From Desulfobacterales bacterium (GTDB lineage: Bacteria > Desulfobacterota > Desulfobacteria > Desulfobacterales > Desulfosarcinaceae): a stretch of 64,000 nt of DNA. Under the pieces are notes generated by a model. It worked only from the letters and a program-made list of their open reading frames with translations. It had not been told where the DNA came from and did no database searches. The stretch's first letter is position 1; every line of letters starts with the position of its first letter. The position numbers and the translations under genes were made by a program. Where the stretch lies: contig JACRDD010000005.1 in the NCBI GenBank assembly GCA_016218685.1, positions 124,001-188,000 on the forward strand, given 5' to 3'. This document shows positions 26,494 to 36,664 of this stretch, one piece after another.

Positions 26494-28266
26494 TTACAGC
26501 GGCCAGAAGATGGGAATCAGCAGCGTAGCGCCCACAATCACCAGCAGGTCGAGGGGAATGCCCAGTTTGAGATAATCGCTGAAGCGGTAGCCGCCAGGTC
26601 CGTACACCATCAGGTTGGTCTGGTAGCCGATGGGCGTGGCAAAGGATGCGCTGGCACCCAGACACACCGCCACGATGAAGGGTTTGGGGTTCACCCCCAG
26701 GCTGAGGGCCGTTGAGATGGCGATCGGCAGCATGAGCACCGCGGCGGTATTATTGCTCATCAGCTCCGTGACGATGCAGGTGACGAGCAAAATGGCCCCC
26801 AGGACCACCACGGGCGAAGCTCCATCGAAGAGGCTCAAAAAGTGCCCGGCGAAATAGCTGCTGGCGCCGCTTTTGTCCATGGCCTGGCTCAAGGCGATGG
26901 TCCCGGCGATCAGCAGCAGCAGCTCGCCCTGCAAGGCCCTGTAGGCGTCGCGCAAGGGCAGACAGCCGGTGACCACCATTAAAAAGACGGTCGCCAGGGC
27001 GCACACCATGATGTCGGCCAGGCCGAAGGAGGCCGCGGCCACCATCAGGCCGAACAAGGAAGCCGCCAACGGAGCTTTGCTTTTGTGGACGATTTCATGA
27101 TGCACGTCTTCCACCAGAATCCAATCGCTGCGGCCTCGGAAACGATCGACGCGATCCACCCGGCACCACACCAGCAGGGTGTCTCCCAGGCGCAGGGGGA
27201 TGTCCTTGATCTGTTTCTCGGAATAGTGCAGTCCGCTGCGCTCGATGGCCACGATATGCAGGTCTTCGTCCCGGGCCAGATGGCTCTCCTGCAGCCGTTG
27301 GCCGATCAGATCGGATTGGGGCGGGACGATCAACTCGACCACCATGATTTGACTGGCGCCGGTGGGGCCCAGCCCCTTGCCCCAGGCGGGCAGCTCCACA
27401 TCCTTGCTTTGCAGGATATGGGTCAAGTCGTTGGGCGACCCCTTGACCAGCAGCAGGTCGTCGGCCGCGATGGAGACAGAGTCGCGGCAGGGGTGGAAGA
27501 TGTGGGATGCGCGGATCAGCTTTAGCACCTCGAGGCCGGGGTGTTTGGTGGACAAGTCGCTGCAGGGATTCAGGCCGACCAGTCGGCTGCCTTGTGGAAC
27601 GGACAATTCGGACAGGTAGCGTCGATTCCGCTTCCCGTCCAGCTCGCACGACGGGCTATGAATGTTGGGCATCATGCGGATGCCGACGCCGACGATCAGC
27701 AGAAAGCCCGCGATGGCGATGGGCACCCCGGCCTGCCCCAGTTCGAACATGGTGAGCCCGCCGTAGCCGTAGTGGCTGGCCAGGTTGCCGACGATGATGT
27801 TGGTGGATGTCCCGATGAGGGTACACATGCCGGTCAATGACGCTGTGAAGCACATGGGGATCAAGTATTTGGACGGACTGACGCCAAAGGCGCAGCCCAT
27901 GCTCAGAATCATGGGCATGAACAGTACCACCACCGGCGTGTTGTTGATGAAGGCCGAAGCCACACCGGCCGTCACCAGCACGATCATCAACGCCGTCTTG
28001 GCCCGGCCGCCGGCCAACGCCACCACGCTGCGGCCGATCAGGCTCACCACCCCGGTGCGGATCATGGCCTGACTGATGAGAAACATGGCGCCCACGGTGA
28101 TCACGGCCGGATTGGCGAAGCCCGCCACGGCTTCGGCCGGCGTCAGGATGCGCGTGAGCATCAGGGCCACCATCAGCCCGATGGCCACCAAGTCGATGGC
28201 GATCCACTCGCCGATCAATAGCACCAGCGTGACGACCAAGAGGATGGTGACCAGCAATATCTCCAT
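26494..28266 (-). CDS. SLC13-family permease with TrkA-C-like domains
   Basis: Multi-TM halves flanking a soluble region with RCK-C-like repeats; FINNTPVVVLFMP and SNNTAAVLMLPIA motifs. Confidence 0.88.
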   Translation of the reverse strand: MEILLVTILLVVTLVLLIGEWIAIDLVAIGLMVALMLTRILTPAEAVAGFANPAVITVGAMFLISQAMIRTGVVSLIGRSVVALAGGRAKTALMIVLVTAGVASAFINNTPVVVLFMPMILSMGCAFGVSPSKYLIPMCFTASLTGMCTLIGTSTNIIVGNLASHYGYGGLTMFELGQAGVPIAIAGFLLIVGVGIRMMPNIHSPSCELDGKRNRRYLSELSVPQGSRLVGLNPCSDLSTKHPGLEVLKLIRASHIFHPCRDSVSIAADDLLLVKGSPNDLTHILQSKDVELPAWGKGLGPTGASQIMVVELIVPPQSDLIGQRLQESHLARDEDLHIVAIERSGLHYSEKQIKDIPLRLGDTLLVWCRVDRVDRFRGRSDWILVEDVHHEIVHKSKAPLAASLFGLMVAAASFGLADIMVCALATVFLMVVTGCLPLRDAYRALQGELLLLIAGTIALSQAMDKSGASSYFAGHFLSLFDGASPVVVLGAILLVTCIVTELMSNNTAAVLMLPIAISTALSLGVNPKPFIVAVCLGASASFATPIGYQTNLMVYGPGGYRFSDYLKLGIPLDLLVIVGATLLIPIFWPL

Positions 28267-30236: not shown

Positions 30237-30461
30237 AAGCGGCGCCTCGGACTTTTCCGCCGGACGAAATTTTGACGCTCCAGGGTCCCATCGCCCCCGC
30301 AAATGCCGGCTTGCTTTCCGGTCCGGCCCTGAAAACCTTGTGAATCTTGGAAGAATCGCTCGTCGGCACGCTTTTAGCATCTCCTCGCGTCGGCAGGCCT
30401 TTCGGCTGCTGTTCCCGGATATCTCTTCCGTCCTAAAAACCCGAACCCCAGGAGGCGTACA

Positions 30462-31739
30462 ATGAACATGAGGCGCATCCGCAAGCAGATCTTTTCCTTG
30501 TTGCGGTATCTGCCCAAATTCCTACGCGATCATATCTGCCGCTCCCGCATCCATATTCCGCCGCTGCGTGAAGATCTGCGCTTCGAAATCGCCAAAACCC
30601 AAAAGGATCTGGATCAGGCGTTCCAAATTCTACATGACGCCTACGTCAAGGAAGGTTTCAGCAAACCCCACGCCAGCCGCCGCCGCATCACCGATTACCA
30701 CGCCCTGCCCTCCACCACCACGCTGGTGGCCAAACACGAAGGCCAGGTGGTTGCCACCATTTCGGTGATCCGCGACGGCCCCTTCGGATTGCCCACCGAC
30801 CAGGTGATGGATCTGTCCAGGTTCCGCGATAAGGGCGAGCGCTTGGGCGAGGTCTCCTCCCTGGCCATTCGGCCCGACTTCCGCGGCCGCTCGGGCGAAG
30901 TGATGTTTCACCTCTTCAAATACATGGTGCACTACAGCCTCGACTATTTCGGCCTGGACCGCTTCGTGATCGTGGTCAACCCCGAGCGCATCACGCTCTA
31001 CGAATCGGTGCTGTGCTTTACTCCCTTGCACCGCTCGGCCCTGAAGAAGTACGCTTTTGCCAACGACGCGCCGGCCGTGTGCGCCACGCTCAACTTGCGC
31101 AGGGCCGCCCAGACATGGTTCGCGGCCTATGCCGACCGGCCGGCCCACCAGAGCATCTATCACCTGTTCTTCGGCGGTTTCAGCGAGGCCGAGCGCCGCC
31201 AGATGCGCTTTCCCGAGCGCCCCTTCTACACGGTCAGCGACCCGGTCATGTCCCCCGGCCTGCTGGATTTCTTTTTCAACAAATGCACCGACACCTTCTG
31301 CCGCTTCAAGGCGCCTCAGATTAAAGCCCTGCGCAGCATCTACCTGGAAAACGATTATGCCGCCGTCTGGCCGCGGCAATGGGCCATCCCCCATGAAAAC
31401 GCCCGACGCGGCCGGCGCTTCGAGGTGGCCTGCAGCGGCATGGCCCACGCCGCCGACCACAATCCGGTCGCCTTGACGGTCATGGACGCCTCCCGCACGG
31501 GCCTGCGCGTGCGGGCCGACGCTGAGCTGGACATGGACGCCTCGCCGGTCTTCAAGATCGAGGTGGGCGAAGACAAGGCCGTGCTGGTCAAGGCGCGCCT
31601 GCGCTGGCGCTCCGGTATGATCTACGGCCTGGAGATTCTGTATGCCGGAAGTTTCTGGGGGCAGTTGCTCGACTACCTGGAGCAGCAATTTGCCTTGACG
31701 GTGGGACCGGGGTCCGAGCCGGCGACCGCCGTGGGATGA
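30462..31739 (+). CDS. FeeM-like N-acyl amino acid synthase / GNAT domain with C-terminal PilZ-like domain
   Basis: FeeM-like block QILHDAYVKEGFSKPHASRRRITDYHALPSTTTLVAKHEGQVVATISVIRDG...GEVSSLAIRPDFRGR; C-terminal RRGRRFEV...MDASRTGL matches PilZ RxxxR and (D/N)xSxxG motifs. Confidence 0.78.
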   Translation: MNMRRIRKQIFSLLRYLPKFLRDHICRSRIHIPPLREDLRFEIAKTQKDLDQAFQILHDAYVKEGFSKPHASRRRITDYHALPSTTTLVAKHEGQVVATISVIRDGPFGLPTDQVMDLSRFRDKGERLGEVSSLAIRPDFRGRSGEVMFHLFKYMVHYSLDYFGLDRFVIVVNPERITLYESVLCFTPLHRSALKKYAFANDAPAVCATLNLRRAAQTWFAAYADRPAHQSIYHLFFGGFSEAERRQMRFPERPFYTVSDPVMSPGLLDFFFNKCTDTFCRFKAPQIKALRSIYLENDYAAVWPRQWAIPHENARRGRRFEVACSGMAHAADHNPVALTVMDASRTGLRVRADAELDMDASPVFKIEVGEDKAVLVKARLRWRSGMIYGLEILYAGSFWGQLLDYLEQQFALTVGPGSEPATAVG

Positions 31740-31774
31740 ATCAGCGTTTGAGCACCAAAAGAAGGGAGAAAGGG

Positions 31775-33055
31775 ATGCCCGCTAAAGCGCAATTGATCCG
31801 CGATGTGAGACGCTTCGAATGGTACATCCGGCACGTGTGGCCCATCCACCGGCGCCTGGCGCACAAGCATTTGACGCCCCGCTGCCGCCGCTGCATCCTG
31901 CCGCAAAGCTACGCGCCTCTGGTCGATGGCCTGTGCCCCCACTGCCGCGCAACTCAAAGCACCGACGCGCCGCCCTCCCCGGCGCGCAAGCTGCGGATGC
32001 ATGCCGATTTCGACCGCCGCCTGCGGGCCTTGCCGGCCGAGAAAGCCCGGCTCTACCATGCCATGGTGCTGTTCAGCGGCGGCAAGGACAGCAGCTATAT
32101 GCTGCACCGCCTGCTCCAGGAGTATCCCGACCTGCGCCTGCTGGCCGTGACCGTGGACAATACCTTCATGAGCCCGGTGGCCCTGGAGAACATCCAGGAG
32201 ATCATCCGGCGGCTGGGGGTCGATCACCTGACCTTGCGGCCCAAGGCCGCCACCATGGAGAAGATGTACCGCTACGCCTTCACACACCTCAACGACAAAG
32301 GCTGCGCCGGCACCGTGGATCAATTCGACGGCGATTTCTTCTCCGACCTTTCCCGCAATCTGGCGGCCAAACTGGAGATCCCGTACATCGTGTGCGGCCT
32401 GTCGCCGGCCCAGGTGGAGAACATCCTGCACCTGCGCGACTACATGACTTCCGAGCAAGACGAAGCCTTGGCCCGCGAGCAGGTGGCCGGCATCCGCCTG
32501 CGCGATCTCTTCGACGAACAGGAGATGAACTACTGGTGGAACGGCCCGGCCTGGCCGGCCGAGCGCCGGCCGCGCATGTTGTTCCCATTTTATTTCTGGG
32601 ATCTGGACGAATCCTTCATCAAGCGGGAGGTGTTGCGCCTGGGGCTGATGCCCCGGGGCGACGAAAGCCCGCTGATCACCAATCATCAATTGATTCCCCT
32701 CATGGGGATCGTCGATATGCTGACCTTGGGCTACTCCTCCTTCGAACCCGAATTTGCCAGCATGGTGCGCCAGGGCAAGGCGGACCGCCGGCACTGGCTC
32801 TACTCCTTCGAAACCCTGGAGTACGCGGCCAAAACCGGACATTTGCTGGGTACGGCGGTGGACGAGGCCCTGGCGCGCTTATCCCTGACGCGCGCGCAGG
32901 TCGGCATTGGAGGCACCGATGACACACTTGACCGACTTTGCCACCCTGCCCGAGCTGTTGGCCCAGCGGGTGCGGCAAACGCCCCGGGCCACGGCCTTCG
33001 TGGCGCGCAACCCGGCCGGGCGCTGGCGGAACACCACCTGGAAACAGTTTCATAA
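31775..33055 (+). CDS. PP-loop ATPase, N-acetyl sugar amidotransferase-like
   Basis: CRRCILPQ...CPHC Zn-ribbon, SGGKDSSYML PP-loop; RBS gggag at 31775; ATGA-overlap start at 31736 also possible. Confidence 0.8.
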   Translation: MPAKAQLIRDVRRFEWYIRHVWPIHRRLAHKHLTPRCRRCILPQSYAPLVDGLCPHCRATQSTDAPPSPARKLRMHADFDRRLRALPAEKARLYHAMVLFSGGKDSSYMLHRLLQEYPDLRLLAVTVDNTFMSPVALENIQEIIRRLGVDHLTLRPKAATMEKMYRYAFTHLNDKGCAGTVDQFDGDFFSDLSRNLAAKLEIPYIVCGLSPAQVENILHLRDYMTSEQDEALAREQVAGIRLRDLFDEQEMNYWWNGPAWPAERRPRMLFPFYFWDLDESFIKREVLRLGLMPRGDESPLITNHQLIPLMGIVDMLTLGYSSFEPEFASMVRQGKADRRHWLYSFETLEYAAKTGHLLGTAVDEALARLSLTRAQVGIGGTDDTLDRLCHPARAVGPAGAANAPGHGLRGAQPGRALAEHHLETVS

Positions 33056-34643
33056 AAGCGTCGCCGCGCTGGCCGCCGGACTGTGGCGCGCCGGCCTGCG
33101 GCCAGGGGATTACGTGGCCGTGATGCTGCCCAACTCGCTGCGCTGGGAAGTGGCGCAGCACGCGGTTTACCGTATCGGCGGCGTCGTGGTGGGCCTGGAC
33201 CGCAACGATCCGGCCGACCGGCTCGCCGATCTCTTCGCGCACTTCAAAGCCAAGGCCCTGATCCTGGACGATCGCCAACTGCTCGACCGCATTCCGGCCG
33301 CCACCCTGGCATCGCTGCGCCTGGTGCTGACCGATACCGAGTCCATGCCGGCCCTGGAGGCCGGCACCGCCCGGTCCCTGCCCGATCTTTCGGCTGTCTC
33401 CCCCGAGCAACCGGCCACGCTGATTTTTACTTCCGGGACCACCGGCCGGCCCAAGGCCCTGGTATACTCCCATCGCCAACTGACCCTGGCCATTGCCAGC
33501 ATCCTGCCGATCCTGGCCGCGGTGCCCGATCAGGCCCATACGGTGTGTTGGCTGCCGCTGGCCAACCCCTTCCAGCGCATGACCAACTGGTGTGCCATGG
33601 CCGCCAACTGGAAAAGCTTCATGGTGCCCGATCCGGCGCGCATTCTGACGGAGGTGCGCGCGATCCGACCCCACTTTCTGGTGGGCGTGCCGCGCTTCTA
33701 CGAAAAGCTTCACTCGGAGATCCACCGGCGCCTTGCGCGCCTGCCCGGCCGACTCCAATCCACGACCCGCTGGGCCCAGCAGGTGGGCGGACGCTACTGG
33801 CGCGCGGCGCTGCTGGGCGATCGGGTCACCTGGCCCCTGAAGTATCAATACCGTCTGGCCGACCGGCTGGTGCTGCGCCGGGTGCGCCGGGGCCTGGGCG
33901 GTCGGCTGCGCTTCTTCATCAGCGGCTCGGCCCCCCTTTCCGAACCCCTGCTCGAAGCTTTCGCGGCCCTGGGCTGGCCGATCCTGGAAGCCTACGGCAT
34001 CAGCGAAAACATTATCCCCATCGCCATGAACGCCCCCGGCGCCTGCCGGCCGGGCAGCGTGGGCCGGCCGCTTCGGCCCAATACCGTTCGCATCGCCGAA
34101 GACGGCGAGATTCTGGTCAAAAGTCCCGGGGTGTCGGCGATCGTGGCCGACACCCAGGCCGATGGCTTCTGGAGGACCGGCGACCTGGGCCGGTTGGACG
34201 ATGAAGGATTTTTGCGCATCACCGGCCGCAAAAGCGATGTCTTCAAACTCTCCACGGGCCGCAAAATCGTACCGCGCATCCTGGAAGAGGCCCTTGGCCG
34301 CATCGAGGGGGTGGCCCACTGCGTGGCTGCCGGACACAACCGCAAGTGCGTGGTGGCCCTGCTCAACGTTCCCGAGGAGCAATGGCATCGATTGCAGGCC
34401 CGGCACCATGGGCCCGAAGGCGCCTATCGGTACCTGCGCGAGCAGGCCCAGAGCGCCTGTGCCCATCTACCCGACTACAGCCGGCCGGCGGCGGTGGCCG
34501 TGGTACGCGATACGTTTTCGCCCCAAAACGGCGAACTGACCCCCAATCTGAAGCTGCGGCGCGATTTCGTGTTGAAAAAGCATGATCCGATACTCGCAGA
34601 GCTCTATCGTTGCATGGAAACAGAAGATGAAAGCAGAAAGTAA
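32919..34643 (+). CDS. AMP-binding acyl-CoA/acyl-AMP ligase
   Basis: LIFTSGTTGRPKAL, EAYGISEN, GFWRTGDLGRLDDEGFLRITGRKSD motifs. Confidence 0.93.
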   Translation: MTHLTDFATLPELLAQRVRQTPRATAFVARNPAGRWRNTTWKQFHKSVAALAAGLWRAGLRPGDYVAVMLPNSLRWEVAQHAVYRIGGVVVGLDRNDPADRLADLFAHFKAKALILDDRQLLDRIPAATLASLRLVLTDTESMPALEAGTARSLPDLSAVSPEQPATLIFTSGTTGRPKALVYSHRQLTLAIASILPILAAVPDQAHTVCWLPLANPFQRMTNWCAMAANWKSFMVPDPARILTEVRAIRPHFLVGVPRFYEKLHSEIHRRLARLPGRLQSTTRWAQQVGGRYWRAALLGDRVTWPLKYQYRLADRLVLRRVRRGLGGRLRFFISGSAPLSEPLLEAFAALGWPILEAYGISENIIPIAMNAPGACRPGSVGRPLRPNTVRIAEDGEILVKSPGVSAIVADTQADGFWRTGDLGRLDDEGFLRITGRKSDVFKLSTGRKIVPRILEEALGRIEGVAHCVAAGHNRKCVVALLNVPEEQWHRLQARHHGPEGAYRYLREQAQSACAHLPDYSRPAAVAVVRDTFSPQNGELTPNLKLRRDFVLKKHDPILAELYRCMETEDESRK

Positions 34644-35781
34644 ACGTGAGGGTGCCCAGGCGCGGCACTATTTTCTGACCGGCGGCACGGGCGTGATCGG
34701 CAGCGCTTTTCTGCGCCGCATCGCCTCCCGGCAGGAACGCGCCACCTTGCTGATCCGAGCCGAAACCCAGGCCCAGGCCGATGAACGGTTGCAACGGCTG
34801 CTGCGCGCCTGCGCAGCGGGAAGCTTGGCGGCCCTGCCCATCGCCGCCTTGCCCGGCGATCTTTACCGTCCGAACCTGGGCCTTTCGCCGGAAGAGTATG
34901 ACCGGGTGGCCAACACCTGCACGCACCTGGTGCACTGCGCCGGCAACGTGCATATGAACCTGCCCCTGGCCGATGCCCGGCGCCAGACCCTGGCCATGAC
35001 CACCGGCATCTTACAACTGCTGGAAGATTCGCGCGTCGCGCGCAAGCTGGAATTCGTCAGCACCGTGGGCGTGGCCGGCCACACCGGCGGCGAGATTCCC
35101 GAACAGTGGCTGGACCACCCCCGGCGCTTCCACAACTCCTACGAAGCGGCCAAGGCCGAGGCCGAAACTTTGGTGCAGGCCAAGATCGCAGCCGGCCGGC
35201 CGATCACCGTGCACCGGCCCAGCATGGTGGTGGGCGATGCGCGCACGGGCCAGACCAGTGCCTTTCAGGTTTTTTACTACCTGTGCGAGTTTTTCAGCGG
35301 CGGCCGCAGCCACGGCTTTCTGCCGGCCGTGGACGGCACGAGCCTGGATATCGTGCCGGCCGATTATGTGGCCCGCGTGCTGGAGTGGTCCAGCCGCAAA
35401 GAATCCCCCCCGGCGCCGATCCTGCACCTGTGCTCCGGCCCCATGGGCGCCCTGCCCCTGAGCCGGATGACCGCCGAGGTGCGGCGCATCTTCACGGAAC
35501 ATGGACGACAGTTGCCGGCCGTCAAGGAGTTGCCCCTGCCGCTCTGCAAAATGGCCCTGCGTCTGATCCGTCCGCTGATCCCGCCCAGGGACCGCCGCGC
35601 CCTGGACGCCATGCCCTTCCTTTTCGCCTACCTCAAGGAGAGCCAGAGCTTCGGCAATCGGCACACGCGCGCCTTGCTGGAATCCGACGGCATCGAACTG
35701 CCCAAGACCGAGGAGTACTTCGAGACCGTGCTGGGGTATTATTTGAAGCACGCGGAAAAACGAAAGCAGCCGGATTCATAA
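34627..35781 (+). CDS. NAD-dependent epimerase / thioester-reductase-like protein
   Basis: FLTGGTGVIGSAFLRRI nucleotide-binding motif; HCAGNVHMNLP, NSYEAAKAEAETLV; 17-bp overlap with ligase. Confidence 0.85.
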   Translation: MKAESKREGAQARHYFLTGGTGVIGSAFLRRIASRQERATLLIRAETQAQADERLQRLLRACAAGSLAALPIAALPGDLYRPNLGLSPEEYDRVANTCTHLVHCAGNVHMNLPLADARRQTLAMTTGILQLLEDSRVARKLEFVSTVGVAGHTGGEIPEQWLDHPRRFHNSYEAAKAEAETLVQAKIAAGRPITVHRPSMVVGDARTGQTSAFQVFYYLCEFFSGGRSHGFLPAVDGTSLDIVPADYVARVLEWSSRKESPPAPILHLCSGPMGALPLSRMTAEVRRIFTEHGRQLPAVKELPLPLCKMALRLIRPLIPPRDRRALDAMPFLFAYLKESQSFGNRHTRALLESDGIELPKTEEYFETVLGYYLKHAEKRKQPDS

Positions 35782-35933: not shown

Positions 35934-36221
35934 ATGGAAAAAACCGTCGTCGGCATCCGGGATGCAAAAATCCATCTGAGCGAGTTGATCAAAAAAGTCC
36001 AGTCCGGCAACGAGGTGATATTGACCGATCGCGGCAAGCCGGTGGGAAAAATTATTTCGATCCAGCCCCGCTCGCTCAAACTGGAGGAACGCGTCAAGCA
36101 CCTCGAGGAGCGCGGCATTCTGGAGCGGCGCCGCCGCGATCCCTTGAAAAAAGTGCCGCCGCCGCTACCGCTCGAAAAAGGCCTCGCGCGCAAGTTTCTC
36201 GAGGAGGACCGCGACCGATGA
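35934..36221 (+). CDS. Phd/YefM-family antitoxin
   Basis: VGIRDAKIHLSELIKKVQSGNEVILTDRGKPVGKII signature. Confidence 0.92.
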   Translation: MEKTVVGIRDAKIHLSELIKKVQSGNEVILTDRGKPVGKIISIQPRSLKLEERVKHLEERGILERRRRDPLKKVPPPLPLEKGLARKFLEEDRDR

Positions 36222-36664
36222 ATCGAAAGCCGCCGGTCATCTACTGGGATACCTCGGCCATCGTTTCGGTGCTGTTCAAGGACGACCATAGCGAACGGGC
36301 GCATCTTTGGGCCGGCCAGGAGGGCATTCACCTGATTTCTTCGCTCGGTTACGCGGAGGCTTGCGCCGTGCTCTCCAGAATCCAAAGGGAAGGCGCCCTG
36401 GCGGATATTTTAATAAAAGCCGCATACGAGGTGTTGGAATCCGGCCCCTGGCGCCGGCTGCATCTGGCGCCGGCCTGGGAAGATCTGCGCGAACTTTCCG
36501 CCAAATGGCCTCTGCGCGGGGCGGATCTTTGGCATCTGGCAACCGCGAAGCACGCCCAAACGGAGTTGCCCGAACTGGTCTTGTTGTCTTTCGACGATCG
36601 CTTGAAAACCGCTTCCGAGGGCGAAGGCCTGGGAATTGACTTAACTCAAGGATCTCGGCCCTGA
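36218..36664 (+). CDS. PIN-domain toxin (VapC-like)
   Basis: IYWDTSAIVSVLF, E at SLGYAEA, ADLWHLATA acidic PIN motifs; 4-nt overlap with antitoxin. Confidence 0.9.
   Translation: MNRKPPVIYWDTSAIVSVLFKDDHSERAHLWAGQEGIHLISSLGYAEACAVLSRIQREGALADILIKAAYEVLESGPWRRLHLAPAWEDLRELSAKWPLRGADLWHLATAKHAQTELPELVLLSFDDRLKTASEGEGLGIDLTQGSRP

Follow-up and report, generated by a model that had tools for sequence, protein, structure and literature searches.

What N-acyl amino acids do in the physiology of bacteria is unclear. In their synthesis by FeeM-type enzymes the acyl group comes from acyl-ACP, and in the locus considered here such an enzyme stands at the head of a compact set of further genes. The window (the whole stretch of 64,000 nucleotides that was analysed) derives from a draft genome, G000, of 3.8 Mb and 65% completeness, and a pattern search across a collection of 85,000 species returned a single near-identical contig as match. 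The operon spans 30462-35781 on the forward strand (5.3 kb), and a check of open reading frames gives four of them on that strand, at 30462-31739, 31736-33055, 32919-34643 and 34627-35781, exactly where a previous sequence-only reading had placed them. We put at about even the chance that the product of this operon is a tailored N-acyl amino acid lipid, with the FeeM-type NAS that would begin the synthesis switched by c-di-GMP. The features on which the argument draws are as follows.

30450 to 30455, forward strand: Shine-Dalgarno AGGAGG of the first gene, from the sequence
30462 to 31739, forward strand: gene 1, NAS (FeeM-type)-PilZ fusion, 425 aa, the first gene of the operon
30615 to 31094, forward strand: FeeM/NAS domain, residues 52-211, PF21926 E 1.3e-40
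30849 to 30851, forward strand: codon of the putative catalytic Glu130, from alignment with FeeM 2g0b
31404 to 31637, forward strand: PilZ-like domain, residues 315-392, from alignment, PF07238 E 0.0019 and below the cut-off
31775 to 33055, forward strand: gene 2, NASAT-like PP-loop ATPase, with 31775 as its likely start and a conserved core that ends near 32920
31883 to 31945, forward strand: tetracysteine CxxC..GxCxxC (Cys37, 40, 54, 57), from alignment
32075 to 32092, forward strand: PP-loop SGGKDS, from alignment
32919 to 34643, forward strand: gene 3, acyl-AMP ligase (ANL superfamily, FadD11-like), 574 aa
32921 to 33055, forward strand: C-terminal extension of gene 2, overprinted on the ligase gene, with a reading frame open in the window, G303 and G305 alone
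34627 to 35781, forward strand: gene 4, thioester-reductase-type SDR (NAD_binding_4), 384 aa

Two of the boundaries between these genes are to be revised. The ATGA at 31736-31739, put forward as the junction of genes 1 and 2, is present but is improbable as a start, and gene 2 most likely begins at ATG 31775, because a close relative's genome (95% identical) carries a TAG within the extra 5' stretch from 31736 onward, because all gene 2 orthologues in the alignment begin at the position equivalent to 31775, and because among the candidate starts only this ATG has a ribosome-binding site (AAGGGAG) before it. The long overlap at 32919-33055 is open in the window but reflects a lineage-specific extension of gene 2 of some 44 codons, open only in the window's species and its two nearest relatives (G303 and G305); the remaining orthologues end in 'GGR*' beside the ligase start, which lies at 32919 behind a GGAGG at 32909-32913. 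A conserved translational coupling device was considered for this overlap and rejected, since the extension has an open frame in just three closely related genomes. Similarly the 17-base overlap at 34627-34643 exists in the window but is not conserved, there being a gap instead in G305 and G304. Past the reductase lies a Phd/YefM-PIN toxin-antitoxin pair (35934-36664), taking the place of a convergent gene for a PAS-domain sensor-like protein that follows the reductase in four genomes (L026:2894-5455, with equivalents in L027, L028 and L029), and on the other side a transporter-like gene (26494-28266) is 69% identical to its L025 counterpart while both its neighbours are at 94-98%, which looks like an allele replacement.

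The FeeM domain of the first gene scores 139.2 bits in the profile search against a cut-off of 27. Glu130 is invariant in six NAS orthologues (relatives 54-96% identical to the window protein), and it sits in a stretch, 'LGEVSSLAI', that matches 'LAEVVQFAM' of FeeM 2g0b, the same region of FeeM holding Glu95, its active-site residue (PMC4897644); mutating the equivalent Glu103 abolishes the activity of Nas354 (PMC4897644). The predicted structure of the NAS, a weak model with pLDDT 56, has 2g0b as its closest fold (Foldseek E 9.6e-10). In the PilZ-like domain RxxxR (315-319; R315 and R319) and DxSxxG (342-347; D342, S344 and G347) are invariant in the six orthologues although the rest of the domain diverges, and PF07238 gives 18.9 bits, short of its 22.5 cut-off, with weak matches in five of the six and a best E of 0.00043. 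Another FeeM-type protein of about 400 aa is encoded away from the operon (G000:C3:166295-166762), and such a second protein is found in most genomes of the genus (G000, G305, G301, G303, G299 and G306).

The ligase matches AMP-binding PF00501 at E 4.9e-61 (207 bits, cut-off 29.9), its motif cores TSGTTGRPK, TGD and GRK.D (GRKSD-type) and the C-terminal KLRR lysine are invariant in the alignment, and its best NCBIfam match and nearest protein in the PDB are FadD11 and FadD13 respectively. The reductase matches PF07993 at E 2.3e-43 (148.6 bits, cut-off 20.1), retains in six orthologues an invariant glycine-rich TGxTGxxG-type motif and Ser/Thr-Tyr172-Lys176, and is closest to the MxaA R domain and to carboxylic acid reductases, whereas TIGR01746 (126.9 bits) is not reached at its cut-off of 213.35. 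Thioester reductases yield aldehydes or alcohols. Together with PF21926 and a match of gene 2 to the WbuX family TIGR03573, these results uphold the family assignments made earlier for all four genes, and the catalytic motifs of NAS, PP-loop protein, ligase and reductase are all invariant, those of the first two being the ones on which that reading had set a test. It is agreed too that no carrier-protein gene lies inside the four-gene cluster.

The cluster is a real, functional unit: the neighbourhood comparison that had been suggested finds its genes together, and in order, across species. The complete four-gene order occurs in six genomes of the genus (G000, G303, G305, G304, G302 and G297) and recurs in G543, from another family. 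Within the family, NAS-PilZ, PP-loop protein and reductase are found jointly in the same six, the draft G301 (a seventh of the genus) has only fragments of two of them, and the survey did not find them in the other four genomes of the genus or in 19 further ones of the family, the exceptions being weak NASAT-like matches and, in G299, a distant FeeM. Across the order, 12 intact loci in four families all keep the PP-loop protein, ligase and reductase together and in sequence, a thirteenth (G646) being interrupted by the contig end. In a class-wide sample of 390 genomes the PP-loop clade and the reductase each occur in 13 and share 12 (Fisher p ~8e-21, ignoring the kinship of the genomes), the single exceptions being G646 at its contig end and the fragmentary G301; in a phylum-wide sample of 396 the reductase occurs in G000 and G186 only. 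At one locus, in another family, a fusion of PilZ and 4HBT thioesterase domains lies upstream of the operon at a distance of some 2 kb (L067:11279-12055).

The more distant versions of this trio, in G369, G359, G573, G646 and G186, have diverged (identities of 25-28% for the PP-loop protein, 33-37% for the ligase and 37-43% for the reductase) and stand in other gene surroundings. Their neighbours are a lipid-type exporter, a LolA-like protein and a beta-barrel protein, the exporter being MMPL except in G369, which has an ABC transporter bearing FtsX/MacB domains, and a PEP-CTERM protein lies beside the trio at three of the loci (G359, G573 and G186). The NAS here is of the TIGR03694 type, a single-domain FeeM or a FeeM fused to a cyclic-nucleotide-binding domain. 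The last of these (L069:3114-4370, near the trio) may be compared with NasP, a cAMP-activated NAS (PMC4897644). Because of the MMPL or ABC exporter and LolA-like genes, the product of this branch may well be exported to the outer membrane. In all, a NAS of one of three or four kinds lies within a few kb at 12 of the 13 trio loci, G601 having the trio without an adjacent NAS, and this exchange of NAS kinds around a fixed trio is the chief ground for supposing that an N-acyl amino acid is what the trio tailors.

A pathway can be drawn from these assignments, its substrates, its order of steps and the way in which nitrogen or hydride is transferred being those we infer. The NAS-PilZ protein would join an amino acid to a long acyl chain that primary metabolism supplies as acyl-ACP, and binding of c-di-GMP to the PilZ domain would switch the enzyme. 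The PP-loop ATPase would then take the N-acyl amino acid as its substrate, adenylating a carbonyl or carboxyl oxygen and installing a nitrogen to give an amide or amidine; the acyl-AMP ligase would activate a carboxylate as a thioester, and the thioester reductase would take this to an aldehyde or alcohol. The sequence-only reading had proposed a small pathway for an N-acylated, possibly amidated or reduced product, and with the co-occurrence and catalytic-motif checks passed the N-acylated part stands as the best reading, while 'amidated or reduced' is a chemical inference. A more specific version, in which a PP-loop enzyme resembling sugar amidotransferases was recruited to lipid chemistry and converts an N-acyl amide or carboxylate to an amidine or amide ahead of the ligase and reductase, seems unlikely, and were it true there would be an undescribed class of aminolipid under second-messenger control. 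If so, the second version of the trio would feed outer-membrane lipid export in PEP-CTERM bacteria.

How far the four enzymes serve one product can be argued in other ways. Fatty acids in general could be substrates of the ligase, which together with the reductase may form a two-protein fatty-acid reductase making an aldehyde or alcohol, the NAS and PP-loop protein providing a separate amide and the final product combining both, for example as an ester or as an amine adduct of the aldehyde. The nearness of the ligase to FadD11-type long-chain acyl-CoA ligases and, in the PDB, to FadD13 would suit this, as would that of gene 4 to the MxaA R domain and carboxylic acid reductases, but a constant trio with an exchanged NAS fits a single linear pathway at least equally, and we hold this division of labour to be doubtful if worth keeping in mind. 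The product might instead be the small-molecule acceptor, still to be identified (PMC7468200), or a lipid that accompanies the exosortase/PEP-CTERM system of surface proteins. G359, G573, G186 and G646 speak for this, all four having an exosortase in the genome and genes for the exosortase-associated acyltransferase TIGR03694, MMPL and LolA-like proteins beside the trio, with the PEP-CTERM protein adjacent in the first three. Against it, no exosortase match was obtained in G305 (100% complete), G304 (99%) or G302, all with the window-type operon, nor in G369 of the other branch, so an obligatory exosortase link is rejected and such a role is very unlikely; G000 also gave no match, in a genome only 65% complete.

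Gene 2 could also be taken at face value as a true N-acetyl sugar amidotransferase (NASAT), the cluster then adding amidine and acyl groups to a cell-surface sugar. A SGGxDS PP-loop and a tetracysteine are the two signatures of NASAT (PMC10607449), and gene 2 has both in alignment, as SGGKDS and a probable zinc site; the profile comparison of trio PP-loops with a NASAT-like set gives a probability of 100% over 292 aligned columns. The WbpG-like label of the earlier reading holds as resemblance but not as membership, which is rejected on score, missing partners and a separate clade. The nearest family, WbuX TIGR03573 (E 2.1e-22), gives 80 bits against a curated cut-off of 203.2, whereas a genuine HisF-WbuX fusion elsewhere in G303 reaches 294, so the score test recognises a true NASAT in this genus. 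HisH/HisF-type partners or sugar genes were found neither in the cluster, which holds no nucleotide-sugar or glycosyltransferase gene, nor in the flanking genes scanned or read at the trio loci, and the cluster has no glutaminase, HisH/HisF or AsnB as an ammonia supply. In a tree with 22 other NASAT-like proteins the PP-loop proteins of the trio group as a single clade (support 99/99), and the window and distant groups align over 336 columns reaching the C-termini; the structure model of the PP-loop protein, at pLDDT 43, was set aside as too poor for a view of the active site. A sugar product is thus quite improbable, and this clade suggests that some sugar-amidotransferase-like proteins act in lipid pathways. 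Elsewhere in the phylum, many NASAT-like genes adjoin an AMP ligase and a carrier protein, often with an asparagine-synthase-like gene, so the fold may be used more widely in chemistry other than that of sugars. In L074-L081 and L005-L016 such PP-loop genes have as neighbours an AMP ligase, an acyl carrier protein and asparagine-synthase-like genes, and one of them adjoins EpsI, apparently a third, exosortase-linked setting without HisH/HisF.

Returning to the tailored N-acyl amino acid as the preferred product, the locus links a NAS, across families, with a fixed trio whose chemistry can be predicted and with domains for second messengers (PilZ in the window, cNMP-binding in a relative), and with four genes in 5.3 kb it is of a size that permits direct expression and assay. 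In the accessible literature we found no account of a NAS pathway that uses this trio, earlier mention being possible, and nothing that links PP-loop proteins to amidine gene clusters, NAS to aldehyde or reductase chemistry, or N-acyl amino acids to MMPL and PEP-CTERM genes.

Parts of the system are nonetheless familiar. The NAS-PilZ architecture is already known from the N-acyltyrosine synthases Nas343 and Nas354 (Sci Rep 2016, PMC4897644), which like gene 1 join a FeeM-type NAS to a C-terminal PilZ-like domain and have the equivalent catalytic Glu (PMC4897644). Nas354 yields N-acyltyrosine in E. coli (PMC4897644), and both act alone and were judged to lie outside a pathway operon (PMC4897644), whereas the window NAS heads a conserved tailoring operon. 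In that respect it resembles the thalassotalic acid, kyonggic acid and stieleriacine clusters described in 2025, where NAS and tailoring enzymes also stand together (PMC12479983), although their tailoring relies on ThiF with a nitroreductase for desaturation and on methyltransferases (PMC12479983) in contrast to a PP-loop protein, acyl-AMP ligase and thioester reductase. Gene 2 shares SGGKDS and the probably zinc-binding tetracysteine with WbpG, WbuX and LpNASAT (8WEX, PMC10607449), in which conversion of ATP to AMP and PPi is thought to swap an amide oxygen for nitrogen (PMC10607449), but differs in scoring below the family cut-off, in having no HisH/HisF partners or sugar genes and in falling into a separate clade whose members have a conserved C-terminal part of their own. 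Gene 4 likewise has the glycine-rich nucleotide motif and SDR Ser/Thr-Tyr-Lys of MxaA (4u7w) and carboxylic acid reductase (5msc), yet stands alone with no fused carrier or adenylation domain and falls below the TIGR01746 cut-off. As for the PEP-CTERM/exosortase loci, in distant relatives the trio adjoins a TIGR03694 NAS and a PEP-CTERM protein, whereas the window operon has a FeeM-PilZ instead and is found in genomes without detectable exosortase.
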